IMG/VR virus record: IMGVR_UViG_3300032053_000204
Coordinates: 1 to 38,819 of that record
DNA from: a virus
Direction: 5' to 3' (one strand)
DNA length: 38,819 nucleotides
Shown here: piece after piece, positions 19,913-38,199 of the stretch
Layout: the number at the start of each line of letters is the position of its first letter
Numbering within the stretch: position 1 is the first letter of the stretch
Made by a program: the position numbers and the translations under genes
Notes under the pieces: model-generated
What the model was told of the DNA's origin: nothing
The model's input: only the letters and a program-made list of their open reading frames with translations
The model's database searches: none

Positions 19913-21028
19913 CTATATAGCAAACAGTCTTCCCTTGACTGGCGCTTTATTCCCCAACGACTCTGCTGTTATACCCGCTACATAAGGCATCCCGGCTCCA
20001 GGTATATTGTTGGCCGAAGCTCCGCCACCAATGCCCATCTTAATGACACCCGGCAATTCAGGCTTCCTAATCTTTGACAACCCTAAAGCAAACACACAGG
20101 AAGCAGCTACAGCATCCGAAAGGTCCTTACTACCGCCCTCTGGGTGGTCTACCTTCTTACCCTCAATCAAACTCAACCCTTGAAACTCTGTTATAAAAAC
20201 GGGTTCATAATAATAATCAATCCTTCCAGACAGCATAAGTTCAACCAAAGTATCGTAAGCCTCAGTGGTCCTGTCTACCGAATACTGCTTGACGTTATAC
20301 TTCTTCAGCGTCAGCTCCTGTTGAAATTCCACAGATTGCCAAGAATCTACCGACACCTGACCTATGCAAAATCCCAGGTTGGTAAGCTCATAAACTATCT
20401 GCCTGAACTTTTCAAGCCTGAGTTCCCCACCATCCGGAGGCCTTATGCTCAACATCAGGTCCACTACAACTTTATCCATGTGGTGGTCGTAGTGAGACAT
20501 AGCAACACCAGCCGCGTCCCTGCTCTTCGCCATATCAAAATGGATAAAATATTCAAACCCCTCTCCCCTAAACCAAGGCGCGAACGAGAACTGGTCTGAA
20601 TTTCTCCTATCCTTATACACCACAGGACAAATGCGGCCCTGGTTCACCCTTCTCTCTGCCAACATAGAGTCATGTACCAGGGGCTGAGCTGCTGAAGGAG
20701 GAGCTGAACCATAGTCCCTGGCTGCCTGATAGTACGACTTGGCAAACTCAGAAGCAAAATCATCCTTGGTCAGCTTAGGGTTCATACACCACGTACTTCC
20801 CCTTACCCCCAAAACTGAACCACAACGATAAATTTCAACCGAGTCCATACTATAGTCAGACTGGGTTTGTGACTCTACTTCCAGGTGAGCAGCCCCGTCC
20901 AGTATCGCTGCGTCTTGTTCACCCTGTTCGGCTGCATTGAACATTGGTAATAGCGGAACAGGTAAGGGCTTTACTTCCTCGCCCTTACCTACCGCTCTGC
21001 CGCTGTGATGGTTAAACGACGGACCCAT
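19913..21028 (-). CDS. Terminase large subunit, nuclease half (separate gene), 371 aa
   Basis: Residues 78 to 120 (STWCMNPKLTKDD and ARDYGSAPPS) match the linker found after the ATPase domain in large terminases. The RNase H-fold nuclease follows: FDMAKSRDAAG with D165, VSVDSW with D228, and GGSKDLSDAVAAS with D302 or D305. These are the three catalytic acidic positions of TerL nucleases, which cut concatemeric DNA before and after packaging. No Walker motifs are present. The ATPase half is a different gene (22069 to 23877), and an unrelated gene lies between. The ATG at 21028 overlaps the upstream stop as TAATG, so this is a designed start, not a frameshift remnant. Confidence 0.8.
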   Translation of the reverse strand: MGPSFNHHSGRAVGKGEEVKPLPVPLLPMFNAAEQGEQDAAILDGAAHLEVESQTQSDYSMDSVEIYRCGSVLGVRGSTWCMNPKLTKDDFASEFAKSYYQAARDYGSAPPSAAQPLVHDSMLAERRVNQGRICPVVYKDRRNSDQFSFAPWFRGEGFEYFIHFDMAKSRDAAGVAMSHYDHHMDKVVVDLMLSIRPPDGGELRLEKFRQIVYELTNLGFCIGQVSVDSWQSVEFQQELTLKKYNVKQYSVDRTTEAYDTLVELMLSGRIDYYYEPVFITEFQGLSLIEGKKVDHPEGGSKDLSDAVAASCVFALGLSKIRKPELPGVIKMGIGGGASANNIPGAGMPYVAGITAESLGNKAPVKGRLFAI

Positions 21029-22008
21029 TACTCAGCGTCCTTAACACCCGGCTTATTTTTCTTAATCTCTTCAACAGCACCTGGCAAAAACTCTACCCAA
21101 GTAAATTTTTGACAGTTGCACATTCTGCACTTCCCATGCCCAGCTTGAACTGTGTCCTCATGCTGGCTCCCGCCCCCATCACCAGTATGTCCGCACGAAC
21201 ACTTGCTCTTTCCACCGGCAGTCTTGTCCACTTTCAAAGGCGTGGATTCCTGAGGCGGCTTCTGTTTTGTAAGGTCCACAGACTTCCTTTTATCCAGGGT
21301 CTGCTTCTCGGCCGCAGTCTTTATCATATCCTTTACCAGGTTAGCAAAACGACCCCATGCCATGTTCTTAGGCTTACGGCAGGCTAGAGTCCTCATTAAA
21401 CCATCGAAAGGCCCTGTAACCGTCTTATTAGGACCAAACATCCCCTCAGTCCTAGCCTCTATGTACTGAGCTACCTGAGGGAGAATCCTTACAGCCATGC
21501 CCTTTATAGCGGCTGCATCATCGGCCCCAATACGACCGGCCTTAACCTCTGCGTCGGCCTTCTTTTCCAGGTCTCCAACCGAAGTAGGAAGAAAACCACC
21601 CTCTACCCAATCCAGCACCACAGGAACCAACGCAGCCTCAACTGCAGCTATATGGGCACTAGGGACCTTAACCGAAATGCCACTGGCGACCCTCTCTGGA
21701 GCACCTGCCGTAGAGTGCAGCGCTGCGGTCTTAACCGCCATCTTGTTAGACACGGCAGCCTGGTCCAAAATCTTTGCGCCTTCAGGGGTAGGCCCGTCGT
21801 GAACCCTAGCCAGAATGGGTCCCTCAGGTGACTCCACCAGCTGCCATATAGTCCCCAATCCCCAGTCCTTACCCGCAACCACCTGAGTCAGCACATACTT
21901 GCCGTCGTCCTTCGCCTGAAATGACTTCATAGTATCAGGGTTGGACTGAAGCTCAGCCAGCTTAATATGCTGATGCGACAACTTCTTACCGACCAATCCG
22001 CTAGACAT
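21028..22008 (-). CDS. Virion-type protein with C-terminal CxCGH ribbon, 326 aa
   Basis: The ATG at 22008 has an AGGAGG ribosome binding site. The N-terminal ~100 residues are mixed alpha/beta. The middle is helical with KTAA, KKAD and KTAG linkers. A ribbon C270-S-C-G-H...C-R-M-C-N-C-x-x-F302 matches ribbons in the 850- and 1304-residue proteins. It is inserted between the ATPase and nuclease halves of the terminase but shows no terminase or homing-endonuclease features. It is probably a structural protein that separates the two halves. The function is unknown. Confidence 0.65.
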   Translation of the reverse strand: MSSGLVGKKLSHQHIKLAELQSNPDTMKSFQAKDDGKYVLTQVVAGKDWGLGTIWQLVESPEGPILARVHDGPTPEGAKILDQAAVSNKMAVKTAALHSTAGAPERVASGISVKVPSAHIAAVEAALVPVVLDWVEGGFLPTSVGDLEKKADAEVKAGRIGADDAAAIKGMAVRILPQVAQYIEARTEGMFGPNKTVTGPFDGLMRTLACRKPKNMAWGRFANLVKDMIKTAAEKQTLDKRKSVDLTKQKPPQESTPLKVDKTAGGKSKCSCGHTGDGGGSQHEDTVQAGHGKCRMCNCQKFTWVEFLPGAVEEIKKNKPGVKDAE

Positions 22009-22068
22009 TTTACCTACCTCCTAATTTGTGCGCCCTCATTAGCCATACAAAAGCCTTTATGAACATTG

Positions 22069-23877
22069 CTATTTTTCGTCAGATATAGCCAGCTCCCTCT
22101 TAATATCCTCGATGGTTTCCGGCTGCCCTGCCTTCTGCACCACTTCCTTACGCAGCCCTGTTACGGTCTTGCAGAGATAATCGGTCCTACTCTTTAACGA
22201 GCTTATTGCCAAGAACTTGTAGCTGTCAGAAAAACGGGTCTTCATGGAGCCCTTAAGAACCTGGCAGATATCCTCCCCGTTATCCTTGTTCGCCTTTGAA
22301 ACAAACCACGAAAGCTCATCGGCCACAGCAGCGTAAATAGCATAACCACGCCATACTGTCGAGCCACTGTGACCACTTATGGCCCTTACCCTCTTTGAAG
22401 GAAAGAACATATCGGCATGACCTAAGGCAGTTCTCTTACTGAATTTATCGTTAAAATACCTACTGTTTTCAATAACGGCACAAAGCGTATCGAACACAAC
22501 GCTCTGAGCCTGTACTCCGCTGACCGATACGTTGAGCACAGTCAAAAGCGTATTCTTGCGAAGGCTGTAGTAGCTCCACGGGTCCTTAAGGTTCAGAAGC
22601 CAGTAAATGGCCCTTGCCAGAAATAAGGAACCCATAGCTGACTTGCCTGAATTGTGACCTACTACACCACCATCATGTATATAATTTTCCACCCCAGGCA
22701 CAGAACAATCGTAGTACTCCCCCTCCCCCTCACCCACTACACTTTTAACTCTAACCCAGTAAAAATCGTCCTCCTCAAGCGAAACGGGTTTTTCTTCCCT
22801 TATAGACTTTAAAACTTCCTCACAACCTATAATATTAATACTGTTTGCAAACCTTCTTCTATTAGAGGTACCCACTACCTGCAACACCCATGCAAACCCA
22901 TAAGTCTTATCTCCACACCTAAATTCCCTAGACACTTTCCTATATACCCGGGAAGCAACTCCAAACCGTAATAACAACCTACGGACTCCTTCTACCAACT
23001 CCTTAGACTTACTAACATAACCTATTTGATACTGATAACCCTTAGTGTTTTTCCGTATCCGCTTATCATGATATTTGTACCTACCGCACCAACCGTCCGT
23101 AGAAAACAGCCCTTCTAAAAATTTTGCGACATGAGTATCGGGCAAACTATATATCAAATCTGGCACAGTCTTATTATGTGCCACCCCTTTTCTTATACCT
23201 GGAAAACTACCGTCTCCAATCATGGCTCCCAAAAAGAAAGCCTCATTGGAGGTCATACTCTCTACAGGATTATTAATATACACTCTACGGCTTACAGCCA
23301 CCAACTCCCCCACCTTCAACTCCCCTGCTTTAACCCACCTAGTCTTGCTTCTACCCAGTACTACATGCCCCCAATTCTTGCTTTTACTGTACTCCCTGCC
23401 CAAGAATCTATGTCCTTGGTACACCCTTACTGATAGACCCCCAGCAAGTTCAACTTTAAGAATTTTACCCCTTCCAGAAACTCTGAATCCTGTAGCTGGT
23501 GATATACCACACCTACCTTCATTATACCCTACGGAAACAAAATCATTTTTAACACCCTCTACCCTTCTCCACAAACCGGTATTAGCGTCGTATACCTCAG
23601 AACCGGCTGCAATGCATCCCCTCCCGATAGCAAAATAGCCTTCTCGGTAGGTAGGTTTGTCGAACTCTTCCAGAATGGCCTGAACATTAGGCCAGAGGTC
23701 GCCCTTCCAGTCTGCGAAATCGGGAGAGAATAAAAACTCTCTCATAGGAACCGGCGGCTCCTCATACACCCTTTCAAGAAGGAGCCTGGCCCACTTGGTA
23801 GGAGTTAAGTCGTTCTTTTTCAAAAACGCCTGAACGCCAGGGTCCTGCAACTGCAACCACCAAAGATTGTCGTCCAC
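22069..23877 (-). CDS. Terminase large subunit, ATPase half, with intein
   Basis: The extein parts (residues 1 to 87 and 410 to 602) form a terminase ATPase. Walker A GRG|SGKS is interrupted by the intein. Walker B is YAIYAAVADEL (D520, E521), with a coupling motif FLAISS near 550. Removing the intein leaves about 280 residues, the ATPase domain only; the nuclease is encoded at 19913 to 21028. The ATPase powers DNA translocation into the prohead through the portal. The start is GTG at 23877, with GGAGAGG close upstream and an in-frame stop just before it. The C-terminus ends in a charged tail rather than a linker, so the break lies between the two classic domains. Confidence 0.8.
   Translation of the reverse strand: MDDNLWWLQLQDPGVQAFLKKNDLTPTKWARLLLERVYEEPPVPMREFLFSPDFADWKGDLWPNVQAILEEFDKPTYREGYFAIGRGCIAAGSEVYDANTGLWRRVEGVKNDFVSVGYNEGRCGISPATGFRVSGRGKILKVELAGGLSVRVYQGHRFLGREYSKSKNWGHVVLGRSKTRWVKAGELKVGELVAVSRRVYINNPVESMTSNEAFFLGAMIGDGSFPGIRKGVAHNKTVPDLIYSLPDTHVAKFLEGLFSTDGWCGRYKYHDKRIRKNTKGYQYQIGYVSKSKELVEGVRRLLLRFGVASRVYRKVSREFRCGDKTYGFAWVLQVVGTSNRRRFANSINIIGCEEVLKSIREEKPVSLEEDDFYWVRVKSVVGEGEGEYYDCSVPGVENYIHDGGVVGHNSGKSAMGSLFLARAIYWLLNLKDPWSYYSLRKNTLLTVLNVSVSGVQAQSVVFDTLCAVIENSRYFNDKFSKRTALGHADMFFPSKRVRAISGHSGSTVWRGYAIYAAVADELSWFVSKANKDNGEDICQVLKGSMKTRFSDSYKFLAISSLKSRTDYLCKTVTGLRKEVVQKAGQPETIEDIKRELAISDEK
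22651..23616 (-). mobile_element. LAGLIDADG-type intein in TerL Walker A, 322 aa
   Basis: The intein starts with Cys (CIAAGSEVYD) directly after GRG and ends in VVGHN before Ser, restoring the Walker A GRGSGKS. The N-terminal splicing block and the C-terminal block (ENYIHDGGVVGHN) look intact, with Ser as the +1 nucleophile. Two LAGLIDADG-like motifs, FFLGAMIGDGSF (residues 127 to 138) and FLEGLFSTDGW (166 to 176), lie only about 38 residues apart, much closer than usual. The endonuclease therefore seems shortened and may no longer cut. Insertion in the terminase P-loop is a known intein niche. Confidence 0.85.
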
Positions 23878-25499: not shown

Positions 25500-25505
25500 A
25501 TCTCA

Positions 25506-25582
25506 CCCCTTAAAAACGAGGGGCCTACACCTCAACCCGGCGTGAGTGAATATCACCCACATCATCGGGTTATGAAGTGTAG
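25506..25582 (-). promoter_or_regulatory. Structured dnaX leader with sequestered Shine-Dalgarno
   Basis: A long hairpin pairs 25525-25539 with 25566-25582 (CTACACYTCA...ACCCG on one arm), with an inner 7-bp stem 25542-25548/25554-25560. Directly downstream, 25519-25523 pairs with 25506-25510 (CCCCT/AGGGG). This would bury the AAGGGGTGAG ribosome binding site of dnaX. The arrangement fits translational control such as autoregulation by an RNA-binding protein or an RNA switch. No known riboswitch class is recognised. Confidence 0.55.
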
Positions 25583-25677
25583 ACCACCTCTAAATTTGTG
25601 GAATAATCCCAAGGTCCCCTCTGAACCATACATCCCGGGAGTTCTACAAGCGCAAACAAAAGCGAAGCCATACGACC

Positions 25678-25689
25678 TATATACGAAAT
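25678..25689 (-). promoter_or_regulatory. Putative phage promoter motif ATTTCGTATATA (copy 1)
   Basis: An exact copy of the recurring 12-mer, followed by GG three bases after TATA. It sits upstream of the dnaX leader and just downstream of the metallophosphoesterase gene, pointing towards dnaX. Flanks share CGTTAAAAGCC with the copy at 30227. No classical -35 box is obvious. Confidence 0.6.
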
Positions 25690-25724
25690 GGCTTTTAACG
25701 GCCTGTGGTATGCGTGTGGCAGGA

Positions 25725-26405
25725 CTACTTAGAGAAACAAAACTCTATAGGCAGATTCGTATGCTCGTATCTCTCATTGCACAAAGAGGCATTTATAAAT
25801 TGTGTACCTGCCACAGTCTTGGTCTTGCCTCCCTGAGAATGGATGTGACCAAAGATATGATATAAAGGCTTTACTCTCTCGATGGCCTTGCGGAGTTCTA
25901 TACATCCAACATGACGGTCTGTCCACACTCCATCCACAAGCTCCCAACCGGCCTCATCTAAAATCCCACGAGGCGGTCCATGAGTAACCAAAATGTCAAT
26001 CCTCTCCGGTATTCGAGACCACTTATCTTCCAACTCCTCCTGATGGGTCAACATGAAAGCCCAATTACAAAATTCAGGTGTATATGGCGAGCCGTAAATT
26101 TTAATACCCTCAATCTCTACCATGTCGTCCACTAGAAGATGGGTCCCCAATAACCAATTCTTGCACAAAGCTACATCCTGTTCCACAATACGGTCGTGGT
26201 TCCCAGGTACAAAAATCTTATGTTTATACGGCAGATTCTCCCACCACACAATAAAACGGTTGAATTCCACCATGTCCCCAAACATACATGCATCACCAGC
26301 ACAAACTAAAACATCCCCCTCAGGCAGAACGGGGCCTGGGCTGTATCTGTGGTGAGGGTCTGCTATTGCTACAAATCTCAAAAGTCCCCCCTTTTTCCTT
26401 TTCAC
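25725..26405 (-). CDS. Calcineurin-like metallophosphoesterase (MPPED-like), 226 aa
   Basis: Motifs in order: ADPHH (metal-binding Asp-x-His), CAGD, GNHD, THGPP and GHIH, the complete set of ligands for a dinuclear metallophosphoesterase. The pattern VLVCAGDACMFG and HKIFVPGNHD resembles MPPED/UPF0046 enzymes. The substrate is unknown; phosphodiesters or nucleotides are likely. The start is GTG at 26405, overlapping the previous stop as GTGA. A TTG eight codons downstream, behind a strong AAGGGGGGA, is an alternative. Confidence 0.8.
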   Translation of the reverse strand: MKRKKGGLLRFVAIADPHHRYSPGPVLPEGDVLVCAGDACMFGDMVEFNRFIVWWENLPYKHKIFVPGNHDRIVEQDVALCKNWLLGTHLLVDDMVEIEGIKIYGSPYTPEFCNWAFMLTHQEELEDKWSRIPERIDILVTHGPPRGILDEAGWELVDGVWTDRHVGCIELRKAIERVKPLYHIFGHIHSQGGKTKTVAGTQFINASLCNERYEHTNLPIEFCFSK

Positions 26406-27082
26406 CTTTCGCTAGGCTCCTTCCACCCTATGCCCAACAAGCGTAAAATCTCGGCCTCTGATTCCGCCGCTTGTAGCACACCCTTATCATCAAACAGACC
26501 ATGCTCGTTCAACAGCCACCCCATCTTCTTGGCCGCAGTTCTGGACTTGATGTTAAACTCCTTGGAGCCAGTCCTGTACAAAACACACGCTCCCCACTCC
26601 TTCTTGTCGGTAAAGGTCAAATCAAACATCACCCTCTTATCGCCGTAATGAAACCTGATTATGTGCTCCCCTGACATTACCACATCCTTAGCCACACTCT
26701 CCGCAATACAAAGCGCCAGTACAGGAGTTCCAACAATAACCAGGTCTACGTCCTTTATATCCGGCTTGCCTCTCCTATACGAACCACAGACCTCCACCTG
26801 CTCTATCGCCGGCAACAGGTGTGTCAAAACCTCACGAATCAAAGGCTCTATCTCTACCCGACTATAACGAACAGGAGGAGGGACTAAAGAAGCTACGTGC
26901 GAAGAATGCTTACAACTCCCTCCACGAAACCTAAAATGAGGGCAGTTACATACCACCCTACCATCGGACTTAATGTCAACCTTATACCCGCTCCCGTCAG
27001 GCTTCAACACCTGCACCTTAGAGCCGAGTTTAAGCTCCCCTACTATCTCGTACCCCTTAAGCTGACCTTGTGATATGGTCAT
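26402..27082 (-). CDS. SWIM zinc-finger plus PolX-like nucleotidyltransferase, 226 aa
   Basis: Residues 45 to 59 give C-N-C...C-K-H, a SWIM zinc finger. Residues 96 to 226 form a Pol beta/PolX palm and thumb: VCGSYRRG, D111-V-D113 as the metal pair, FDLTF with D154 as the third carboxylate, then TGSKEFNIKSRTAAKKMGW and a C-terminal LLGIGWKEPSER that matches the PolX ending. The usual N-terminal helix-hairpin-helix (8-kDa) domain is absent, and the SWIM finger takes its place. Gap-filling or template-independent nucleotide addition is possible. The ATG overlaps the previous stop as ATGA, with GGGGG upstream. Confidence 0.8.
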   Translation of the reverse strand: MTISQGQLKGYEIVGELKLGSKVQVLKPDGSGYKVDIKSDGRVVCNCPHFRFRGGSCKHSSHVASLVPPPVRYSRVEIEPLIREVLTHLLPAIEQVEVCGSYRRGKPDIKDVDLVIVGTPVLALCIAESVAKDVVMSGEHIIRFHYGDKRVMFDLTFTDKKEWGACVLYRTGSKEFNIKSRTAAKKMGWLLNEHGLFDDKGVLQAAESEAEILRLLGIGWKEPSER

Positions 27083-27576
27083 ACTATACCCCCGTACCCA
27101 ATCAAAGCTTCCACTGTTGCCCTGGTAGCAAAATGGAGCATCATGTCGCCTTTGTGCTTATCGTACCATGCCAGAACATCAGGAGTGCCCTGAGCCCTAC
27201 CTGCCCCCTTCCAGTCGCACACCATTTCCACCACATACCTTTCCGGCATCCTCAAAATCCTTCTCCCGTCCTCATCGTTCTGAAGTACCCAAAACTGCCA
27301 GTGATGAGGATTTCTATGTTGGTGCATCAGCCACGCCACATCAAAAGCCATGTCGCCACTCCGAGCCGGCTTATAGTACCCGGTCTCATCCCGACCTTTA
27401 TTTATGTCCGACCCCTTCTCCCCATAAAAGAAATTGGCATATGGGATAAACTCACTAGGATAAAGCTTACTCATATCGTGCATAAGCCCTGCCCAATAAC
27501 GCCCCCTCTTGGCACACTCTAGGAAAACAAACCACTTATGCCTCAGGACGTATCTCAAATATAGACAGTATTTCAT
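27079..27576 (-). CDS. DUF5662-like protein, 165 aa
   Basis: The sequence has LMHDMSKLYPSEF, then an HQHRNPHHWQFWVL His cluster, MPERYVVEMVCDW, and a closing ATRATVEALIG. This is the order I associate with DUF5662, a phage and bacterial family with HD-like conserved His/Asp residues. Metal-dependent hydrolase activity would be a guess. A promoter motif lies 18 nt upstream of the ATG at 27576, with GGGGA as ribosome binding site. It may therefore be the first gene of a transcript that continues into the SWIM-PolX gene. Confidence 0.75.
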   Translation of the reverse strand: MKYCLYLRYVLRHKWFVFLECAKRGRYWAGLMHDMSKLYPSEFIPYANFFYGEKGSDINKGRDETGYYKPARSGDMAFDVAWLMHQHRNPHHWQFWVLQNDEDGRRILRMPERYVVEMVCDWKGAGRAQGTPDVLAWYDKHKGDMMLHFATRATVEALIGYGGIV

Positions 27577-27593
27577 ATATCCCCATACTATAA

Positions 27594-27605
27594 TATATAC
27601 GAAAA
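27594..27605 (-). promoter_or_regulatory. Putative phage promoter motif (copy 2, one mismatch)
   Basis: TTTTCGTATATA, one base off the consensus, lies 18 nt before the DUF5662-like gene in an intergenic gap. The flanking sequence continues TTATAG. Position and orientation match the other copies. Confidence 0.5.
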
Positions 27606-27613
27606 AGAGGTAT

Positions 27614-28198
27614 TCAGACCACGCAAATGGTCACTAGGTTGGAGATTACTAAAAGGTCTTGTGGCGTGGCTAAACTAAAATCCTTACTGGGCAACAGGTC
27701 TACCCCTATACCCTTCCAAACAGCCGCACAGCAAAGCTCCGAGCAGGTAAACCCGTTCTTCCACCCCTTCCAATGCCGTGCTACCTCTCTCTGAAGCTTG
27801 GTCCACCCCATCTTGCCCAAGGTACAATAGACCATATCCACACCAATCTGAGCGAAGTCGTAACGGGACCCAACAAAGGTCTTTCCTGCCGCAGCCACCC
27901 TCTCCCCTGTATTGCGATACATGCCCATAAAAGGCGGCGTTAGTCTACGAAGGGCCAAAGAGTACTCGTCCTTGCAGTACTTTTTAATTGGATTTATCTG
28001 AACCCCACCTGCAGGCATTGCTTCAACAATAGCCCCATCCCCGAGACAAACAAAACAGTGAGACACTTGGCCATCCGAAAACCACTCGATGCCGGCGGCT
28101 CCAAAGCTAGAATTAGCTTGTATGCCCTCCGACCCGTGCCTCACCATAACCAGGTCACCCGGCCTAGCTTGCTCAAGGATGGGGCTAAAGTCTTTCAT
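27614..28198 (-). CDS. Permuted papain-like amidase (YiiX/NlpC-like), 194 aa
   Basis: The motif order is that of circularly permuted papain-like enzymes: GDLVMVRHG, then SHCFVCLGDGAIVEAMPAGG with H47 and a following Glu, a YDFAQIGVD segment, and FTCSELCCAAVW with the likely nucleophile C152. Relatives cleave amide bonds in cell-wall peptides or lipoprotein-type substrates. Here it may be the lysis enzyme or an accessory amidase. No signal peptide is present, so release would need a holin; the 93-residue membrane protein at 29927 is a candidate. No clear Shine-Dalgarno lies before the ATG at 28198, so translation may be coupled to the upstream gene. Confidence 0.75.
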   Translation of the reverse strand: MKDFSPILEQARPGDLVMVRHGSEGIQANSSFGAAGIEWFSDGQVSHCFVCLGDGAIVEAMPAGGVQINPIKKYCKDEYSLALRRLTPPFMGMYRNTGERVAAAGKTFVGSRYDFAQIGVDMVYCTLGKMGWTKLQREVARHWKGWKNGFTCSELCCAAVWKGIGVDLLPSKDFSLATPQDLLVISNLVTICVV

Positions 28199-28199
28199 C

Positions 28200-28490
28200 T
28201 TAGTTCATTATGTTGCAGGTTGACGGCCAGGCGCACGGCCTTACCTGTGCCACTAACGTCTTTGCACAAGGATTAGGCATAACACATGGCGTAAACTGCA
28301 CCACCGGCTGCACTACCGGAATCTTGGAACAAGGATTAGGCATAACACACGGCTTGAATTGAGCCACGTTCCTCTGATACCCACCACTCTGAACAGCCTT
28401 AGTGGGCACTAAGGACTTACGCAGCGCAACCTTATCCGTATGAACCGCCCCTCCAAGAAACCACACTACCACGCTTAACAGCTCTACCAT
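28200..28490 (-). CDS. Small protein with three Cys-Pro repeats, 96 aa
   Basis: The ATG at 28490 has GGAG with 8-nt spacing. The first 16 residues (MVELLSVVVWFLGGAV) are hydrophobic and could be a membrane anchor or signal sequence. The C-terminal half has three tandem repeats of the form Q-F-x-P-C-V-M-P-N-P-C: FKPCVMPNPCSK, FTPCVMPNPCAK and VRPCAWPSTC. The first two are nearly identical at DNA level. It may be an exported, disulfide-bonded peptide. It lies directly upstream of the amidase gene, so a link to lysis (spanin-like) is conceivable but not supported by a lipobox. Confidence 0.55.
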   Translation of the reverse strand: MVELLSVVVWFLGGAVHTDKVALRKSLVPTKAVQSGGYQRNVAQFKPCVMPNPCSKIPVVQPVVQFTPCVMPNPCAKTLVAQVRPCAWPSTCNIMN

Positions 28491-28492
28491 TT

Positions 28493-28642
28493 TTACTTCT
28501 CCTCCACATGACCGGACAACATCCGGTCTATCCGCAGTTTGAGTTTAACTATCTCCCTGCGGTCTGAGGCTTCCCCCTTCAGGAGTATGCCTCGAATCTG
28601 TTGCATCAAATCCATACAAATCTGCTTAACCTCTTTACTCAT
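28493..28642 (-). CDS. Small helical protein, 49 aa
   Basis: The ATG at 28642 overlaps the preceding stop as ATGA, and the frame ends in TAA three bases before the next ATG. The product (MSKEVKQICMDLMQQIRGIL and on) is a single amphipathic, coiled-coil-prone helix with many Lys, Arg and Glu. The exact fit between its neighbours supports it as real. The function is unknown. Confidence 0.5.
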   Translation of the reverse strand: MSKEVKQICMDLMQQIRGILLKGEASDRREIVKLKLRIDRMLSGHVEEK

Positions 28643-29364
28643 GCTCCAACCCTGGCCTCTACGGGCTCAAACGTCACCTCGCCGCCCCTTACCATAACTG
28701 CCAGACCGCCAAGTGCCCCGGGCCTAGAGTACCCAAACTTAGACAGCTCGTACGACTCAGTGCCCCCGTTTCCTACAACCCATGCTGGAACACCTGAGAC
28801 CATCCCGTCTTGTACTACCTGCTCTCTACTGCAAGCCTTTATATTACCAAAAAAGGCCCCTAATACAAAACTAGACTTGTTGACCAGGACCTCCACCAAA
28901 TCCTCTGTCCCCTTGTCCAAGCCTCCAAAAGACCACATCCCTATCTTTGGGGGCCAATGAGTAAATACAAACGAAGGGCAGCTTAAGTGTCTATCTAGAA
29001 AGCCCGTCTCCTTCTCGGTAACGGTTCCAGATGATGAGTCTATAGTAATAAACCTAACCCCATTAAGCGTAAAACTGGCATTGGGCTCCCCAAAATAGTA
29101 CGTAAAGTTATCAGAAAGTTTACCATTAAGTCGCTCGGTGGCTCCTGGTGTAACCTCAATCGGCAGACCGTACTTCTTATTTACCCTCTCCAAAAAGGCA
29201 TACGTCCTTCTATAATTGTCGTCAGTGGAAGCGGGAACTAATCCACCACACACCAACATAATTTGAGGGCTGTATTCAAGTAAAGCGGGAAGTCTTTGTT
29301 CAAACTTATCCAGCCCCCCTTCTGCCGTCCCTATGTCCCCCACCACCACAAAATTGAAGTTCAC
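28639..29364 (-). CDS. Degenerate calcineurin-fold protein (probable pseudoenzyme), 241 aa
   Basis: The order of blocks follows metallophosphoesterases, but ligands are lost. VVVGDIG keeps the first Asp and lacks the following His. The GD block is CGGLVP, the GNHE block is PGATER, FTHWPP keeps its His, and the terminal GHxH block is FFGNIKA. A typical ending (WVVGNGGTESYEL) supports the fold assignment. Metal binding and hydrolysis therefore seem unlikely, and a binding or structural role may remain. The GTG at 29364 overlaps the previous stop as GTGA, with GGAG upstream. A different fold with chance similarity is possible but less likely. Confidence 0.65.
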   Translation of the reverse strand: MNFNFVVVGDIGTAEGGLDKFEQRLPALLEYSPQIMLVCGGLVPASTDDNYRRTYAFLERVNKKYGLPIEVTPGATERLNGKLSDNFTYYFGEPNASFTLNGVRFITIDSSSGTVTEKETGFLDRHLSCPSFVFTHWPPKIGMWSFGGLDKGTEDLVEVLVNKSSFVLGAFFGNIKACSREQVVQDGMVSGVPAWVVGNGGTESYELSKFGYSRPGALGGLAVMVRGGEVTFEPVEARVGA

Positions 29365-29927
29365 GTTGTCATACTCTCCGATTCAGCATTCTCCCCTCTA
29401 ACTGCCTTACGCCCCTCGCTAACACTCAAAGATAAATAGCTGTCCCCCCTTAAGCCCCCATCCACGACACTATAGTTCCGCAGTACATACTTAATCACGT
29501 TGAACTTCTCCACCTTAACCGAGAAGACTGGCAAGAACACCACCTTTGACCCTCCCACTGAGCCCGCATCCCCCAAATCCACCAAAGATTGCATTATACC
29601 CATCTGCGTAAAAGAGGTACCGTACATAGTCAAATGGTACTTGGTGTATTCGTCAATAGCCTTAAAGTCCTTATTCATACCACTCAACACTTCTAAAAAC
29701 TCGGCTATTGTGGCTGGCTGTGAGAACTTGGAGTATATGTTCAAGAAGTGCAGGGCGTCTGTTGATATCCCTGTACCCCTTACCACATCAGCCGGTACCC
29801 CCAACCCTTCCGGTGCCTGTATGGTCAGAACACGCCTGTCCTTCCTCCACGCATAATCATCAAAGGAAGTGGCCAATAGAACAGCCTTACGGGTTTCCAG
29901 CGACCCTAAAAAGTCGTCGAGTTGCAT
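29361..29927 (-). CDS. Hypothetical protein, 188 aa
   Basis: The ATG at 29927 overlaps the upstream stop as TAATG. The product is mixed alpha/beta with no signal peptide, membrane helix or metal motif, and has a polar C-terminal tail rich in Ser, Arg and Glu. It lies between a small membrane protein and the degenerate calcineurin-fold protein and is probably co-translated with both. The family is not recognised. Confidence 0.6.
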   Translation of the reverse strand: MQLDDFLGSLETRKAVLLATSFDDYAWRKDRRVLTIQAPEGLGVPADVVRGTGISTDALHFLNIYSKFSQPATIAEFLEVLSGMNKDFKAIDEYTKYHLTMYGTSFTQMGIMQSLVDLGDAGSVGGSKVVFLPVFSVKVEKFNVIKYVLRNYSVVDGGLRGDSYLSLSVSEGRKAVRGENAESESMTT

Positions 29928-30208
29928 TACAAGGGCAAAGTCACGCCGTACTTCTCTTTTAGGAACCGGGAAACTGCTGTGATAAGAACCTGAGCAGCCA
30001 CCACCTTAAACACCATCTCCACAGAAGGAGTAGTAGCAGCCTGAGCGTTCATACCCTGCAAGAACACAATCATACCGTACCCCGCCCCAGCAGCTACCGC
30101 GTTCTTTCCTGCCCTGTTAGCGGCTGACATAAGAGACTTGAAGAAATCCGGATTGTCTACTTGCTTCAACAAGTTTAGTGCAGCCATAAGACGCTTCATG
30201 TAATCCAT
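29927..30208 (-). CDS. Small membrane protein, possible holin, 93 aa
   Basis: I chose the ATG at 30208 because GGAGGT lies 6 nt upstream; a start at 30226 would ignore this site. Two moderately hydrophobic segments are visible, NAVAAGAGYGMIVFLQGM (about 35 to 52) and VFKVVAAQVLITAVSRFL (about 66 to 83), with a basic C-terminus. This fits a small two-helix holin and a papain-like amidase lies nearby, but no family motif proves it. A promoter motif lies 19 nt upstream of the start. Confidence 0.5.
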   Translation of the reverse strand: MDYMKRLMAALNLLKQVDNPDFFKSLMSAANRAGKNAVAAGAGYGMIVFLQGMNAQAATTPSVEMVFKVVAAQVLITAVSRFLKEKYGVTLPL

Positions 30209-30225
30209 TTTAATACCTCCACCCA

Positions 30226-30411
30226 TTATATACGAAATGCCCTTTTACGGGCACCGTGCGCTCCCTTCTTATCCGTTATACAGCCTTTACAGAACTCTAC
30301 CTTTTTACCCTTGTCGTAAAACGCGCTTGCAGGCAAAAGCGTCCTACAACCCCTACACACCCTATCGGTAGTAATGCACTTTTCTAAAGAGTCACCCAAT
30401 CTTCGGTCCAT
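30226..30411 (-). CDS. Small zinc-ribbon protein, 61 aa
   Basis: The product contains CRGCRTLLPASAFY and later CKGC, a ribbon like those of small phage HNH-associated or anti-repressor proteins, and ends in a basic tail (KRAFRI). The start is uncertain. The ATG at 30411 has a weak GGA site; the ATG at 30423 and a TTG at 30435 are further inside the upstream gene. It overlaps the previous gene by about 20 nt. The function is unknown. Confidence 0.55.
   Translation of the reverse strand: MDRRLGDSLEKCITTDRVCRGCRTLLPASAFYDKGKKVEFCKGCITDKKGAHGARKRAFRI
30227..30238 (-). promoter_or_regulatory. Putative phage promoter motif ATTTCGTATATA (copy 3)
   Basis: An exact 12-mer ending 19 nt before the possible holin gene. 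It overlaps the last codons and stop of the upstream zinc-finger gene (GCATTTCGTATATAA). Upstream flank CGTAAAAGGGC resembles copy 1. Retention of the motif inside a reading frame argues for selection on the DNA. Confidence 0.6.
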
Positions 30412-31177
30412 AGAATTTTCCATTTGGCGATACAAAACGACCTCTTATTATGTCTATAGGATACACATTGAACGACCCGTTAGGCATAATAAATACTTCG
30501 GCAATCCCATTAACCCAGGCGTTAGGAGCCCCATTTTTCCACTCCGGGTTGCGAGAGCACAAACAACCGATACTCCAGGCCGACTTCGGACTATGTGTAA
30601 CCCTGGCTACCTTAGTGTGACGCTGGGGCGCGTGGACGTGGGCGTAAATTAGGTTGACCTCATAATCCGATAAAAGCTTTCTGGCGTGATGCGTGGAATA
30701 GTCAGACCCGTGCATAACCCAAAGTTTTCCAAGGGGAAACAAATCGTTCTGCCAGTGAACCTGCATCCCCCTCTCCTTAAGTTTCAGGTCACGAACCAGC
30801 TCAGGAACCGTAGACCTATTCTTTCTTAGGTCCTCAGTATGAGTGTCCCTCCAATGGTACAGCCTCTCTTCGTGGTTTCCGTGTATCCAATGAAGCTCCA
30901 CAGGCTTACCAAACTTAGCAAATATGGCCTGATGCCTGTCTAGCATCTGGTTAGCAATCCTTATCTCCTCTCTAACTGACTCCCAATCTATTGCAGCCAT
31001 TCCAGAGGAGGACCACTTCAGGAGGGCCGTCATGTCGAGCATATCGCCCATGTAGACCACCACATCGGGCTTTTCGTCTACTAGAAACTGCTCGACGTAC
31101 CTGAGGTCAATTTGAAAAGGAATCTGTGAGTCGGCTAAAAAGATTACCTTGCGTACCTTCGTAGTCTCTTTCTTCAT
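30392..31177 (-). CDS. Calcineurin-like metallophosphoesterase, 261 aa
   Basis: I chose the ATG at 31177, with TAGGA 9 nt upstream, over a GTG at 31198. Motifs: FLADSQIP (Asp with Gln in place of the usual His), YMGDMLDM, HGNHEERL, MHGSDY and YAHVHAP. These give a nearly complete metallophosphoesterase centre. The architecture recalls phage-encoded phosphoesterases found with replication genes. The substrate is unknown, perhaps DNA ends, RNA or nucleotides. It is one of four calcineurin-fold genes between 25.7 and 38.1 kb. Confidence 0.8.
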   Translation of the reverse strand: MKKETTKVRKVIFLADSQIPFQIDLRYVEQFLVDEKPDVVVYMGDMLDMTALLKWSSSGMAAIDWESVREEIRIANQMLDRHQAIFAKFGKPVELHWIHGNHEERLYHWRDTHTEDLRKNRSTVPELVRDLKLKERGMQVHWQNDLFPLGKLWVMHGSDYSTHHARKLLSDYEVNLIYAHVHAPQRHTKVARVTHSPKSAWSIGCLCSRNPEWKNGAPNAWVNGIAEVFIMPNGSFNVYPIDIIRGRFVSPNGKFYGPKIG

Positions 31178-31213
31178 CCATACACTTCCTACCCCCACCT
31201 TGAGTAGTTGTGC

Positions 31214-32077
31214 CTAGACAGCTGCAACAAAAAGTTTTCTAGTCCTCTCCGCCTCGATGCCCGCCTGCTCCACGAAACCAGGCCAAGCGCTCCCCTCTTT
31301 CAAGAAGCTGTTAAACTCATAGTCTTCAAAAAATGCCTTAGCGCCAACCCAGTCAACAGCAGGCCACGTCCAATTCAGCTCAGGGAGAAGATTCACACGT
31401 AGGCTTAAAGCATCTATAGCAACCTTGAACGATTCAGCCCTCTCACCAAATTTCACAAGTGCCTCTTCTATGCTCCCCACTTCTTCCTTAATCATTTTCA
31501 AGGCCGTCTTTTCTCCAACGCCACCAATCCCCTTGATGTTGTCAGAAGGGTCACCAGTCAAGGCCCACATAACGGGCAACCACGCTGGCTCTACCCCATA
31601 TTTACTTACAACCCAGGAAACATCGGCGGTTTCTTTCGACTTAGGGAAGTAACAATTTACGGTCTTATTAACGGTCTGAAGTAGGTCGTGGTCCCCGGTT
31701 ATAATCCGGACCTCCTGCCCTTGTTCCGTAGCCCAAACTGCCAAGGTACCCAAAACATCATCTGCTTCCCACCCAGGATGAATTACTTGAATCACACCAA
31801 TCATAGGCAGCACCTTCTTCAAATCTGACACTTCTCTATAAAACGCCTCTGCTCTTGGGTTCCTGGTGGACTTATATGTAGCTATAAGATTACGACGAGC
31901 TACAGGAGAACCGTCCCAAACCACTATCGGGACCACACCAAATAACTTCTTGTACATACCCAACGCTCTTAAAAATCCAAAAACCATACCTGACTTCTTG
32001 CCTGACTTGGTAGCCAGATTACCCATGGCCGCGTCGAACCTGTGCACTTCTCCCATCGCGTCTACTAGAACAACCAT
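31214..32077 (-). CDS. 5'-3' exonuclease (FEN/Pol I N-terminal family), 287 aa
   Basis: Motifs: LVDAMGEVHR near the start, VVWDGSPVARRN, then WEADDVLGTLA, ITGDHDLLQ and LTGDPSDNIKGIGGVGEKTA. The last is the helix-3-turn-helix of flap endonucleases and the 5' nuclease domain of Pol I. The acidic residues bind two metals. It removes RNA primers and 5' flaps during phage replication. The ATG at 32077 has AGGAGG with 4-nt spacing. The preceding ~480 nt lack genes and are highly structured, so this mRNA may carry a very long leader. Confidence 0.9.
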   Translation of the reverse strand: MVVLVDAMGEVHRFDAAMGNLATKSGKKSGMVFGFLRALGMYKKLFGVVPIVVWDGSPVARRNLIATYKSTRNPRAEAFYREVSDLKKVLPMIGVIQVIHPGWEADDVLGTLAVWATEQGQEVRIITGDHDLLQTVNKTVNCYFPKSKETADVSWVVSKYGVEPAWLPVMWALTGDPSDNIKGIGGVGEKTALKMIKEEVGSIEEALVKFGERAESFKVAIDALSLRVNLLPELNWTWPAVDWVGAKAFFEDYEFNSFLKEGSAWPGFVEQAGIEAERTRKLFVAAV

Positions 32078-32089
32078 ATAACCTCCTAA

Positions 32090-32563
32090 ATCTTTGGGGA
32101 CCTACGGCGGCCTCAGTTCTCCCCCACGGACGCTTGCGACTTACCCCGTCCATCCGTACCCTTTATTTGCTGGCACTTACCAGTAGCCTGGGCCAGGCAT
32201 CAGTGTCTTTAAATCGGTAGTGAGGGAGGATTAATGATTACCTCCAAGAGCCTCCACAGTCGCAGATTCAGTCAGCAGCTCGGTGTAGGCCATGACCCCA
32301 CTCCGTACTAACGCTACCGGGGACTTTACCCCGACCACCCCGCAGGACTCATCTATGTAATTAGATGGGCTTAGAGTGGACGCCCAGAACAGGTTTCTCT
32401 GTTCCCATACGTACCTTCTGCTTCTGCTTCACCTCAGCCAGTTTTCAGGGCTAACTCCGCCACCTTGATAGCGGTCCCTTACTTACTGCACCTTAGGCCG
32501 TCCAGGCCTTTTTCGGTCACTCACTAAAAGGAATCAGTAGTTTCCTACCTCATCCTCCAAACC
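32090..32563 (-). ncRNA. Candidate structured non-coding RNA or long leader (about 480 nt)
   Basis: No credible reading frame lies in this stretch on either strand. By eye I find about 12 hairpins, each 4 to 6 bp with short loops. Examples (plus coordinates): 32387-32392/32399-32404 (GAACAG/CTGTTC), 32350-32355/32362-32367, 32318-32322/32329-32333, 32186-32190/32194-32198, 32128-32132/32147-32151 and 32225-32229/32241-32245. A promoter motif lies directly upstream (32566-32577). No core of tmRNA, RNase P, group I or group II intron was recognised. It could be an independent phage RNA in the spirit of GOLLD or ROOL, a leader of the exonuclease gene, or an origin. Confidence 0.6.
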
Positions 32564-32565
32564 TA

Positions 32566-32577
32566 TATATACGAAAT
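32566..32577 (-). promoter_or_regulatory. Putative phage promoter motif ATTTCGTATATA (copy 4)
   Basis: An exact 12-mer, followed by TAGG, in the gap just after the upstream gene's stop and directly before the structured region. If the GG after TATA is the start site, the RNA begins at about 32563. Confidence 0.65.
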
Positions 32578-32590
32578 GCACCTAAACGAA

Positions 32591-33199
32591 TTAACGAATG
32601 TACATCTGGTTACGGCTAGATGATGTCTTGAGCTGGGGCTTCCCGAAGGCTATCTCGACACCAAAAAACATAGAAGCGGTGTTAATAACCACTTTAGATT
32701 TCTCGGTATAGTTGAAGTCGTGCCCTGCCAGAACTCCCACGCTAGATGCATTTGCTATCTTCTCTAGAAGCGGCATCTTGTCCAGGTTGTTAAAAGACAC
32801 CTTATTTAAAACCCAACAAACCACCGGTCTAGTAACATCATTCAACCTTACTCCTTGGACTAATGAGGCCTGACTTGGTGCCCTTGCGCTATTTATCCAA
32901 GAAGCAGAAACCCCAGTATACACATACGAGCCTAGATGGAAAAAGGGTACTGCTGAACCTGCCGACCATATGCCTCTTTTCCAATCTACGGCAGAATAAG
33001 GGATAGTGCTGTCAACTTTAAACCCCGTATTCTTCCTTAAGTCCAACCACACATATCCCCCGAAGTCCCTAACCTTATCTACCTGACCCTGAATCAAACC
33101 AGGGGTAACGGGTTGGAATGTCCCTGAATCTACCGAAACCTCTTGAGCCTGTGCAACGCCAACCAACGACAACAGCGCCACGACCAGTAACATCTTCAT
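32591..33199 (-). CDS. Exported protein with Sec signal, possibly small beta-barrel, 202 aa
   Basis: The N-terminus MKMLLVVALLSLVGVAQAQ is a textbook signal peptide with AQA cleavage. The mature part alternates polar and aromatic residues in strand-like stretches (GGYVWLDLRKNTGFKV, GSYVYTGVSASWI, SVGVLAGHDFNY, MFFGVEIAFGKP), compatible with a small outer-membrane or periplasmic beta-protein. Such phage genes sometimes block superinfection or alter the host surface; that is an inference. The ATG at 33199 overlaps the upstream stop as ATGA. The structured RNA region starts just downstream. Confidence 0.7.
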   Translation of the reverse strand: MKMLLVVALLSLVGVAQAQEVSVDSGTFQPVTPGLIQGQVDKVRDFGGYVWLDLRKNTGFKVDSTIPYSAVDWKRGIWSAGSAVPFFHLGSYVYTGVSASWINSARAPSQASLVQGVRLNDVTRPVVCWVLNKVSFNNLDKMPLLEKIANASSVGVLAGHDFNYTEKSKVVINTASMFFGVEIAFGKPQLKTSSSRNQMYIR

Positions 33200-33612
33200 T
33201 TCTGTTCTCCTCCTTCAGCCTTCTTTATATCCTCAACAGCTTCCTTTGCGTTACCTCTACTTTGTAGCAGAGCCTTTTTCATTGCCTCCATCTCAGGAGC
33301 TAGCTTTCTAGTCCAATGCATATATGACAACCTGCTTATGTGCAGCACCTGAGACCTTCTCGTCCATGTCCCGTGCATCCTATTAAGCTCTATCAACAAT
33401 GCAGCCATAAACATCCTCGGCCTCAGCGACTCGTATGCCGGCATTCTCTCTACCCACTCAGCATAAACATCGTTCATCTTAGGGGTAAAAAGTCCGTAGC
33501 ACTTACGGCTGCAGTACATACCCCGCCGCTCTACATTCTTGCTGCGGTACCTCAACGGAAATGACGTAGAACACTCCGGATTAATACAGTTCAAAGAAAT
33601 CATATTACCCAT
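33196..33612 (-). CDS. Cys-rich putative DNA-binding protein, 138 aa
   Basis: The ATG at 33612 has GGAGGGG with 4-nt spacing. Residues 9 to 38 carry CINPEC and YCSRKCYGLF, a zinc site of the kind seen in small phage transcription and HNH-related proteins. A central helical region (TWTRRSQVLHISRLSYMHW) could be a helix-turn-helix. The C-terminus is charged and helical. A regulatory role is inferred only. It sits between the SbcC-like lobe and the exported protein. Confidence 0.5.
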   Translation of the reverse strand: MGNMISLNCINPECSTSFPLRYRSKNVERRGMYCSRKCYGLFTPKMNDVYAEWVERMPAYESLRPRMFMAALLIELNRMHGTWTRRSQVLHISRLSYMHWTRKLAPEMEAMKKALLQSRGNAKEAVEDIKKAEGGEQK

Positions 33613-33613
33613 T

Positions 33614-34258
33614 TTACCCCTCCTCTCCTGCCCGGGTTGCTACTACCTCCCCGTCGTTCTTGGTAATCACGTAAGACAAATCAGAACCCTCAATGAGCAA
33701 AGGCTCTCGGGTAATGTAGATATGCTGCACCCCAAGGCTTCGGCTCAAATTGACCATAAGCTCTGTAACCTTAGAAAGATATTCCGGGCTCACCCAACCA
33801 AAAGGCTCATCCATAAATATAACCCGGTCTACCAGCCCTAGCTGCGACAGCCTCAACACCACCCACAAACGCAGGAGCCAAGAAACCACGTGAAGCACTC
33901 CACCCGATTGCGAAAAGACCCCGGCGGTATCATTCAAAGGCAGGTCGTTCAAAGTCATATTAGCCACAACCTGATTATTTCTAAGTCCAAATTCGAGCTT
34001 ATAATCCTTCTCATCCCCGAATACGGCCTTCAGCCCGTCAGAAACGAACTTAGAAACGTCCTCTTGAACTACAGTCTGCAACCTGTCGGCGAATCCCTGC
34101 AGTAACTTTAAGACCTGCTCCATCTCTACCACTGAGCTATAAAATTGGTCTGCCTCCCTTTGAAATCTACCAACCTCTGACTGACACAGCTCTCTCCGTG
34201 CCGTAAGTCCGGAGATGCTCTTCCTCAGACCAGATAGCTCAGCAGCAACTATGGACAT
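33614..34258 (-). CDS. SbcC/Rad50-like C-terminal ATPase lobe, 214 aa
   Basis: Residues 1 to 65 form a coiled coil. A signature-like loop SQSGG (116 to 120) is followed by a hydrophobic helix. Walker B is VIFMDEPF (146 to 153), and HIYITREP occupies the switch position (usually His, here Arg). This is the C-terminal ATPase half of an SMC/Rad50/SbcC protein without its N-terminal Walker A half or zinc hook. The likely partner is the coiled-coil protein at 38200 to 38819, which ends at a zinc hook. With the SbcD-like nuclease at 37157 they could form an Mre11-Rad50-type complex for DNA ends. There is no strong ribosome binding site; coupling with the gene two bases upstream is likely. Confidence 0.7.
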   Translation of the reverse strand: MSIVAAELSGLRKSISGLTARRELCQSEVGRFQREADQFYSSVVEMEQVLKLLQGFADRLQTVVQEDVSKFVSDGLKAVFGDEKDYKLEFGLRNNQVVANMTLNDLPLNDTAGVFSQSGGVLHVVSWLLRLWVVLRLSQLGLVDRVIFMDEPFGWVSPEYLSKVTELMVNLSRSLGVQHIYITREPLLIEGSDLSYVITKNDGEVVATRAGEEG

Positions 34259-34259
34259 T

Positions 34260-34553
34260 TTAGGTTATGCTGCACTTAACCGTTCCACCAATAGCCTGCC
34301 CGGTGGATGTGCCTGTGTCGCACCAAACGATGGGCGTTTGCCAAGGTGTGGTCTCCTGTTTGTACGCACCATTCCAATACCACCTGTCATAGTGATGATG
34401 CTCTGTCCTGACCTCCTTAATGACCTCTTTTCCGAAAAGCTCATTCAGGGCTGCGCGCATCTTCTTAGCCTCATCAACGGTCAGAGTAATCTCCCGGCCC
34501 CCTATTGCTACTACTACCCTCTTAACCAAAACTTCTTTTTCTTTAGTTTCCAT
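34260..34553 (-). CDS. Hypothetical protein, 97 aa
   Basis: The ATG at 34553 has GGAGGG with 4-nt spacing. The N-terminal 50 residues form a beta-hairpin and helix (VAIGGREITLTVDEAKKMRA). The C-terminal half is rich in Trp, Tyr and Thr (HHYDRWYWNG), perhaps a small binding surface. It lies between the sliding clamp and the SbcC-like lobe. The function is unknown. Confidence 0.55.
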   Translation of the reverse strand: METKEKEVLVKRVVVAIGGREITLTVDEAKKMRAALNELFGKEVIKEVRTEHHHYDRWYWNGAYKQETTPWQTPIVWCDTGTSTGQAIGGTVKCSIT

Positions 34554-34562
34554 ACTGCCCTC

Positions 34563-35792
34563 CTAGTTTGCCACGGCTACTGCAGCCTTCTGAGCCGCCT
34601 TGCCTACCATGCCCCTCAAAGGAATAACGTACGCTTTTATACCGGGGTTCTCGACGTACATGACAGGCCGACCGTTACCGGTCTTGCCCTCACGAACGGT
34701 TATCATCCTCTCCTGCTCCGTGCTGCCGAATGTGTTTGCCAGGTCCTTCAGGAACTGCCAGTTGAAGGATATGTCGTACTCGTCGGCTATCTTCCAATTC
34801 ACCCGAAGCACAACCTTACCCTTTTGACCAACCTCATCGTCCGCATAAACTAGCAGGGCGTTCCCGCTCTTGGTCAGCCTTACTCCGTGCTCTCCCTCCG
34901 ACAAGAACTGTACCTGCTCTATGGCCCCGGTGAACATAACCTTATCCACCATAAACAGCTCTCTCTTAGTCTGCTCCACAGGCGCCTCAAGCTTGGCAAC
35001 GATATCCAACCAGTAGTTCTGAGCTGTAAATATACCCAGTGAATCGGCGCCGAATGTAAACACAACCTCATTATCCTCAGTCAAGCCAAACTGCACAGTC
35101 TCCACTACCGACAAGCCTATCATGTCCCGTAGTGCCTGAACCCCGTCATGTGCCAAAACGAAGTTGAACTTAGCCTCGGTCAACAGTTTGGCTATGATGT
35201 ATCGGCCTCCTCCGCCAGCTTCCACAAAACCATCCCTGAAATGCAAACCGAAGGAGTTAACGGTATTAGACTCCTGGCCCGGGCCTCCCTCCACCGTTCG
35301 GCTAATGTCTTGAACGGCAGGCATTACCCTACTTAAAACGTCATGTAACAAGGCCCTAGCCACTGTCCACGTGCTCACCCTCTTTACATTGACCAGAGGG
35401 TACGAACTCTCTGGTATGCACAGCGGGGTCCACTCAGCGTCCCCACAAGCAGCTCTACCGTAGAAAGAAGCGTTGTTCCCCACCTTAGCCAGGTCGTCGT
35501 CATTAAATACCAGCTCAAATACTTCCCCCTTAGCAGAAGAGGCCATACTAAGACCAAAGCGGCCGTCCATTGCAAAGGCAAACGGAGCCTCTTTGTAATC
35601 CCCATGAGTCGGTAAAATGACCCTAGCCGAAATAGACTGGTTATACGCCGTTAACGTAACCTTGTTATCCCCAACCTGGAAAAGAACGTATGTCAATGCC
35701 TGAATACCCTCTCTTTTCCCCAGCGCTCCTTTTACAGCCGAAAGTCCCCTAACCAAAACGGGAGTCTCTATCCGAACCCTTTTCTCTGCCAT
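34563..35792 (-). CDS. DNA sliding clamp (DnaN-like), 409 aa
   Basis: The length (409) suits a three-domain bacterial-type clamp (366 residues in E. coli, plus loops). Repeated beta-strand patterns fit: ALTYVLFQVGDNKVTLTAYN, ISARVILPTHGDY, FNFVLAHDGVQALRDMIG, and GVRLTKSGNALLVYADD near the end, where clamps have a MPM-like tail region (KAYVIPLRG). It forms a ring that tethers the polymerase, loaded by the DnaX-like protein. The ATG at 35792 has TAGGAGGTAGC upstream. The fold call is by pattern and neighbours. A processivity factor fits the other replication genes. Confidence 0.7.
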   Translation of the reverse strand: MAEKRVRIETPVLVRGLSAVKGALGKREGIQALTYVLFQVGDNKVTLTAYNQSISARVILPTHGDYKEAPFAFAMDGRFGLSMASSAKGEVFELVFNDDDLAKVGNNASFYGRAACGDAEWTPLCIPESSYPLVNVKRVSTWTVARALLHDVLSRVMPAVQDISRTVEGGPGQESNTVNSFGLHFRDGFVEAGGGGRYIIAKLLTEAKFNFVLAHDGVQALRDMIGLSVVETVQFGLTEDNEVVFTFGADSLGIFTAQNYWLDIVAKLEAPVEQTKRELFMVDKVMFTGAIEQVQFLSEGEHGVRLTKSGNALLVYADDEVGQKGKVVLRVNWKIADEYDISFNWQFLKDLANTFGSTEQERMITVREGKTGNGRPVMYVENPGIKAYVIPLRGMVGKAAQKAAVAVAN

Positions 35793-35800
35793 GCTACCTC

Positions 35801-36064
35801 CTATCGAATGCGCGACTCAATTTCTTTTATTACCTCATTGACCTTACGAACTCGGTTCTGCCAGTCTGCCAGCCCCTTCTCCACCTCATCCTCAATGGTT
35901 GCTATTCTGACCTCCAGCTCGTCCAAATCCTTGACACCCAACGAATCAAATAGCTCGGCCTCTTGTTTCCTGAAAAGCTGAAGTTGAGTAGTAAAAGTGG
36001 TAAGCTGATTCTCCGCGTTACGAACTTGGCCGTCTAACTCGGTAAACTTCTTCAACAGGTCCAT
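35801..36064 (-). CDS. Coiled-coil protein, 87 aa
   Basis: I chose the ATG at 36064 behind GGAGG with 5-nt spacing; an upstream GTG (36070) lies inside that site. The product is almost entirely coiled coil with heptads (MDLLKKFTELDGQVRNAENQ and on), a short break around GVKDLDEL, then a second coil. It could be an accessory of the SbcC-like complex or a separate structural helix. It is the first gene after promoter copy 5. Confidence 0.55.
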   Translation of the reverse strand: MDLLKKFTELDGQVRNAENQLTTFTTQLQLFRKQEAELFDSLGVKDLDELEVRIATIEDEVEKGLADWQNRVRKVNEVIKEIESRIR

Positions 36065-36085
36065 CAACACCTCCCCATTTCAACC

Positions 36086-36097
36086 TATATACGAAAT
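36086..36097 (-). promoter_or_regulatory. Putative phage promoter motif ATTTCGTATATA (copy 5)
   Basis: An exact 12-mer, followed by GGTT, 22 nt upstream of the coiled-coil gene and in a gap after the nuclease stop. Transcripts from here would cover the sliding clamp and SbcC-like lobe genes. Confidence 0.65.
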
Positions 36098-36110
36098 TGA
36101 ACAAATCACA

Positions 36111-38134: not shown

Positions 38135-38142
38135 AAATTAAA

Positions 38143-38172
38143 GCACGCCGGGTTGCCCATTCCCCGGCGTGC
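38143..38172 (-). terminator. GC-rich hairpin, possible terminator
   Basis: Perfect 10-bp inverted repeat GCACGCCGGG/CCCGGCGTGC with a 10-nt loop. On the minus strand it is followed by TTTAATTT, a weak U-rich tail. It lies between the zinc-hook gene and the SbcD-like start. It could terminate upstream transcripts or control SbcD translation, since the start codon is only 8 nt away. Confidence 0.55.
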
Positions 38173-38199
38173 AGGTGTCCGAGGTACCCCCCGGAAATA

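Follow-up and report, generated by a model that had tools for sequence, protein, structure and literature searches.

A putative phage-specific promoter family with an upstream A/T element, preceding replication genes and a manA-like RNA in a fragment of an uncultivated large phage

The late promoters of phage T4 (TATAAATA) consist of a single AT-rich element in the -10 position, read by the small sigma-like protein gp55 together with the sliding clamp. Stoperators of cluster A mycobacteriophages are asymmetric sites that occur between genes in one orientation. The phiEco32 factor gp36, which is devoid of sigma region 4, recognizes one element only (tAATGTAtA), and transcription begins 6-8 bp downstream (PMC8948821). 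Early promoters of phage AR9 follow the form AAATATATATTAT-N6-G and tolerate few changes, with the start located about 6 nt downstream (PMC5312081). In cluster K mycobacteriophages, start-associated sequences include the ribosome-binding core and are positioned 3-7 bp ahead of the start codon (PMC3203893).

The DNA analyzed here (the window) is an entire IMG/VR record, 38,819 bases long and listed as a linear fragment, and belongs to the genome of an uncultivated large phage. It comprises two regions:

High-coordinate side, minus strand: replication/nucleic-acid region, encoding SbcD-like and PD-(D/E)XK nucleases, a beta clamp, a 5'-3' exonuclease, phosphoesterases, a PolX-like protein and a DnaX-like clamp loader
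Lower coordinates, after the replication region, minus strand: packaging/structural region, with a terminase interrupted by a LAGLIDADG intein, and a portal

The portal protein is 32% identical to that of Bacillus phage G, and this is the sole clear phage kinship of the fragment. No close relative of the fragment was found in any collection searched, including the genome contigs, nor were relatives recovered through the DnaX-like and 850-aa proteins. Searches with the portal yielded 15 and then 80 loci at ~30% identity, none of which has a second convincing gene in common with the fragment. The terminase is apparently split, with the intein and LAGLIDADG domains at 22069-23877 (minus strand) and the C-terminal part in a separate gene at 19913-21028 (minus strand), beyond another gene, the whole stretch spanning 19913-23877. 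Directly before the SbcD-like gene, at 38135-38199 (minus strand), a perfect 10-bp hairpin is followed by a T-rich stretch (z -4.6), making it a candidate terminator or control element. Also, a small ORF harbors two 46-nt direct repeats (28259-28367, minus strand), 83% alike and 63 nt apart, that encode a repeated PCVMPNPC-like peptide.

Five copies of a 12-mer occur in the window, at the positions and on the strand given by the first-pass annotation. Four are exact copies of ATTTCGTATATA (25678, 30227, 32566 and 36086, minus strand) and the fifth, TTTTCGTATATA (27594, minus strand), has the first base changed; 11 positions are invariant across the five. In their extended form, described below, the sites are:

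36086..36107, minus strand: site 1, G-ATTT-N5-ATTTCGTATATA, 21 nt before the ATG at 36064 of a small gene heading the beta-clamp operon
32566..32587, minus strand: site 2, G-TTTA-N5-ATTTCGTATATA, 7 nt before the first hairpin of a manA-like RNA
30227..30248, minus strand: site 3, G-TAAA-N5-ATTTCGTATATA, overlapping the end of a zinc-motif ORF, 18 nt before the ATG at 30208
27594..27615, minus strand: site 4, G-AATA-N5-TTTTCGTATATA, 17 nt before the ATG at 27576 of a DUF5662 gene
25678..25699, minus strand: site 5, G-TTAA-N5-ATTTCGTATATA, preceding the structured leader of the DnaX-like gene

The claim that such a repeat is not expected by chance is borne out by its counts. Of all 12-mers on the minus strand, ATTTCGTATATA is the most frequent, and a count of 4 was reached by any 12-mer in one of 300 Markov simulations (orders 2-4). 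The scan with mismatches that had been proposed returned 11 matches at up to two mismatches, against 1.9 expected and a maximum of 6 in 100 shuffles. The shared strand is weak evidence by itself, since essentially all genes of the fragment are carried on the minus strand. After removal of several seeming gaps that proved to be small genes, truly noncoding DNA amounts to about 2.8% of the region, and four of the five copies fall within it (binomial P about 3e-6); between 25.5 and 37 kb every truly noncoding gap of at least 35 nt contains exactly one copy. The remaining copy, at 30227, extends into the final codons of the small zinc-motif ORF at 30226-30435 (...AFRI*), an overlap that had been overlooked, as had the following look-alike:

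7590-7601, minus strand: look-alike ATTTCGTTTATA with one mismatch, located within a structural gene and lacking the upstream GWWWW element; taken as chance

All five copies had been described as pointing at a gene or at the structured RNA, three of them 18-22 nt before a start codon with a good ribosome binding site. The three gene-proximal copies do have a ribosome site between motif and start codon, at distances of 17, 18 and 21 nt when measured from the end of the motif, near the range given. The copies at 32566 and 25678 adjoin no gene; the former faces the structured RNA, as described, and the latter a 178-nt structured leader instead:

25500..25677, minus strand: structured 5' leader of the DnaX-like gene, 178 nt, folding z-score -3.4 versus shuffles

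This leader (25500-25677) ends in a long hairpin and has no match in Rfam. The three copies just before start codons would also be compatible with translation-linked repeats resembling the start-associated sequences of cluster K mycobacteriophages, which are likewise limited to the non-structural half of the genome and to one orientation (PMC3203893). In the window, however, the ribosome site is separate from the motif and downstream of it, at the 17-21 nt spacing, and two copies are followed by an RNA or a long leader, which renders such a role exceedingly improbable. An archaeal TATA box with a leaderless start was rejected, given that the replication genes are of bacterial type, that GGAGG-like sites stand between motif and start codon, and that the start would land within the first hairpin of the RNA.

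Alignment of the five sites without gaps revealed an invariant G, ten bases upstream of the 12-mer, followed by four columns with A or T in 20 of 20 cells. The working consensus is G-WWWW-N5-WTTTCGTATATA, larger than the 12-mer reported earlier. Of 200,000 sets of five randomly chosen places, a fraction of 2-3e-5 showed four adjacent all-A/T columns by chance and none showed the G plus four A/T columns; the extension itself draws on few sequences because there are only five sites. Downstream of TATATA no base is common to the sites, and the 12-mer is followed directly by G, T, A, T and G across the five. The TATAGG continuation noted earlier does exist at three copies (25678, 32566 and 36086), at 32566 in a version shifted by 2 nt (TATATATAGG); given the variable next base, a fixed GG start is not a common feature of the five.

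As also reported in the first-pass annotation, no -35 box is present at the five sites, the best TTGACA match being 2-3 of 6 positions, where the random level is 2.8. There is also no excess of sigma-70-like promoters anywhere in the window. T4-type late promoters (TATAAATA) were searched for and rejected, with no exact copy found and 45 one-mismatch matches distributed over both strands versus 27 expected.

Evidence on the position of TATATA relative to a transcript came from the RNA downstream of site 2:

32078..32559, minus strand: long, divergent manA-like RNA and leader of the 5'-3' exonuclease gene, with an Rfam match at 32215-32545 (31 bits)

The match is below the manA gathering score of 55.2 bits and has an E-value of 0.0002 for the whole window. 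For comparison, manA RNAs were gathered from viral contigs by pattern scan. Of 66 distinct compact manA RNAs, 65 have a TTGACA/TATAAT promoter that matches at 9 or more of 12 positions, and the hairpin base lies 5-7 nt after the canonical -10 box in 58 of the 63 phage manA RNAs with a scorable 5' hairpin. In the RNA of the window, a folded hairpin (GGAGGA...UCCUUU) begins 7 nt downstream of TATATA, although the Rfam alignment instead has the first stem begin at 32545, some 20 nt away from the motif. Because the hairpin spacing matches that of the other manA RNAs (58/63), TATATA appears to occupy the place of the -10 box, and a start approximately 6-8 nt downstream, as in sigma-type initiation, is therefore favored.

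Long manA forms similar to this one, also below the gathering score, occur in other phage contigs, and several of the long forms are neighbors of tRNA genes; manA could represent the central part of a wider class of phage RNAs. An exact 17-nt repeat, TTGGAGGATGAGGTAGG, occurs at the 5' end of the RNA (32544-32560, minus strand) and inside the gene for a 1307-aa protein (5066-5082, minus strand), possibly by chance.

The location of TATATA in the -10 place, comparable to the canonical boxes of the other manA RNAs, leaves some room for ordinary promoters of a housekeeping or alternative host sigma factor with an unusual consensus. Nevertheless, host promoters of one genome are seldom identical over 11 positions, and the missing -35 box and lack of surplus sigma-70-like sites likewise argue against this option, which we judge improbable. 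Asymmetric sites in a single orientation within intergenic gaps are also reminiscent of stoperators, and might be where a phage regulator binds to act on transcription or to block it. The AT-rich TATATA core and its fixed place before the RNA hairpin indicate a promoter instead, and no repressor or integrase gene was recognized in the fragment, so that a regulatory role of this kind is very improbable.

We infer rather than identify the reader of the motif, since no transcription factor of any kind that would read it, a sigma-like or gp55-like protein included, is recognizable in the 38.8-kb fragment. The polymerase or sigma gene whose search had been suggested is thus not apparent within these limits. 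In phage G, the distant portal relative, the profile of sigma region 2 matched twice, once above the curated cut-off, making a phage sigma factor plausible in the wider group. Three candidates of the fragment were tried and rejected: a zinc/HTH-like 138-aa protein (33196-33612) gave no match as a factor and had a model of too low quality for use (mean pLDDT 53), and the 850-aa and 648-aa proteins of the structural region gave none as polymerases.

Near-exact conservation together with the absence of a -35 box is typical of promoters of phage-encoded RNA polymerases, whether multisubunit (phiKZ or AR9 type) or single-subunit (T7 type), and the three TATAGG sites agree with such an enzyme. Against it, no polymerase gene was found in the fragment; an Rpb1-type profile matched neither the fragment nor 11 distant relatives, while all 14 of 14 controls were positive. 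No kinship with phiKZ-type phages was seen in the fragment, phage G being its only clear kin, via the portal. The T7-type profile was also silent in the fragment and the distant relatives, an absence of little weight given that it matched none of the control genomes; the GG start expected of T7-type enzymes is contradicted by the lack of any common base after TATATA. Overall, a phage polymerase of either sort is unlikely, and a T7-type enzyme is less likely than a sigma-like factor acting on a multisubunit RNA polymerase.

Taken together, the noncoding position, the upstream element, the -10-like place before the RNA and the lack of a sigma-70-like excess make a phage-specific promoter family, as first proposed, well supported, with a sigma-like reader fitting best and the T7-type reader also put forward fitting less well. 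The best explanation, with a probability of roughly 0.6, is that the five sites are single-element sigma-type promoters of one class, serving genes of replication and nucleic-acid metabolism and a structured RNA, where promoter activity, start point and reader are all deduced from sequence. This suggests that the phage uses a promoter code of its own. The recognized unit would be G-WWWW-N5-WTTTCGTATATA, within which TATATA (or GTATATA) may be the -10 element that melts, ATTTC may form an extended -10 block and the AT tract may provide an upstream contact, with the -35 element absent and transcription presumably beginning about 6-8 nt past TATATA. The likeliest reader would be a sigma-like factor, encoded or recruited by the phage, that lacks a -35-reading domain and acts on the host RNA polymerase, in a mode that could resemble that of phiEco32 gp36 or T4 gp55. 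A further reading is tentative: GWWWW-N5-WTTTCGTATATA might be a bipartite promoter that also drives the long manA RNA, its reader being an undescribed sigma-like protein or phage polymerase from a large-phage lineage that is deeply divergent.

IMG/VR was searched with the 14-mer ATTTCGTATATAGG and with TTTCGTATATA followed by GGAGG, yielding one copy or at most two copies per locus, at chance level; none of the loci from the TTTCGTATATA-GGAGG scan contains the GWWWW element. The 12-mer is not enriched in the complete records of the distant portal relatives tested, and the motif is not common to them. The sites provide a concrete and testable promoter code for a phage lineage without a characterized close relative, and with it a handle for finding the transcription factor and for sorting genes into temporal classes. 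They also tie a structured manA-like RNA to a promoter that is likely phage-controlled.

Among known systems, the start-associated sequences of cluster K are also short asymmetric repeats at gene starts, in one orientation and in the non-structural half, but differ in sequence and spacing, and here the ribosome site lies outside the motif and two copies have no adjacent start codon. Promoters of T7 type resemble the sites in length (about 22 bp), in combining an AT-rich upstream portion with a TATA part, and in occurring as near-exact copies; in contrast to their conserved GG start directly after TATA, no common start sequence exists here. T4 late promoters differ in sequence from the present sites, which would serve replication genes. 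The early promoters of AR9 and phiKZ, used by a virion multisubunit RNA polymerase, are similarly long, nearly invariant, AT-rich and devoid of a -35 element, whereas the motif described here has an invariant CG and, in addition, an upstream block; those of AR9 type are the next closest in style after phiEco32. The middle and late promoters of phiEco32 agree with the sites in having one -10-like element, no -35 element and a GTATA core, at a start distance equal to that proposed here. They differ in that their 9-bp element has no upstream G-WWWW, their sigma factor is known and they serve middle and late genes rather than a replication region. The general kind of promoter is already known; the extended code described here is well supported and belongs to an unstudied phage lineage.
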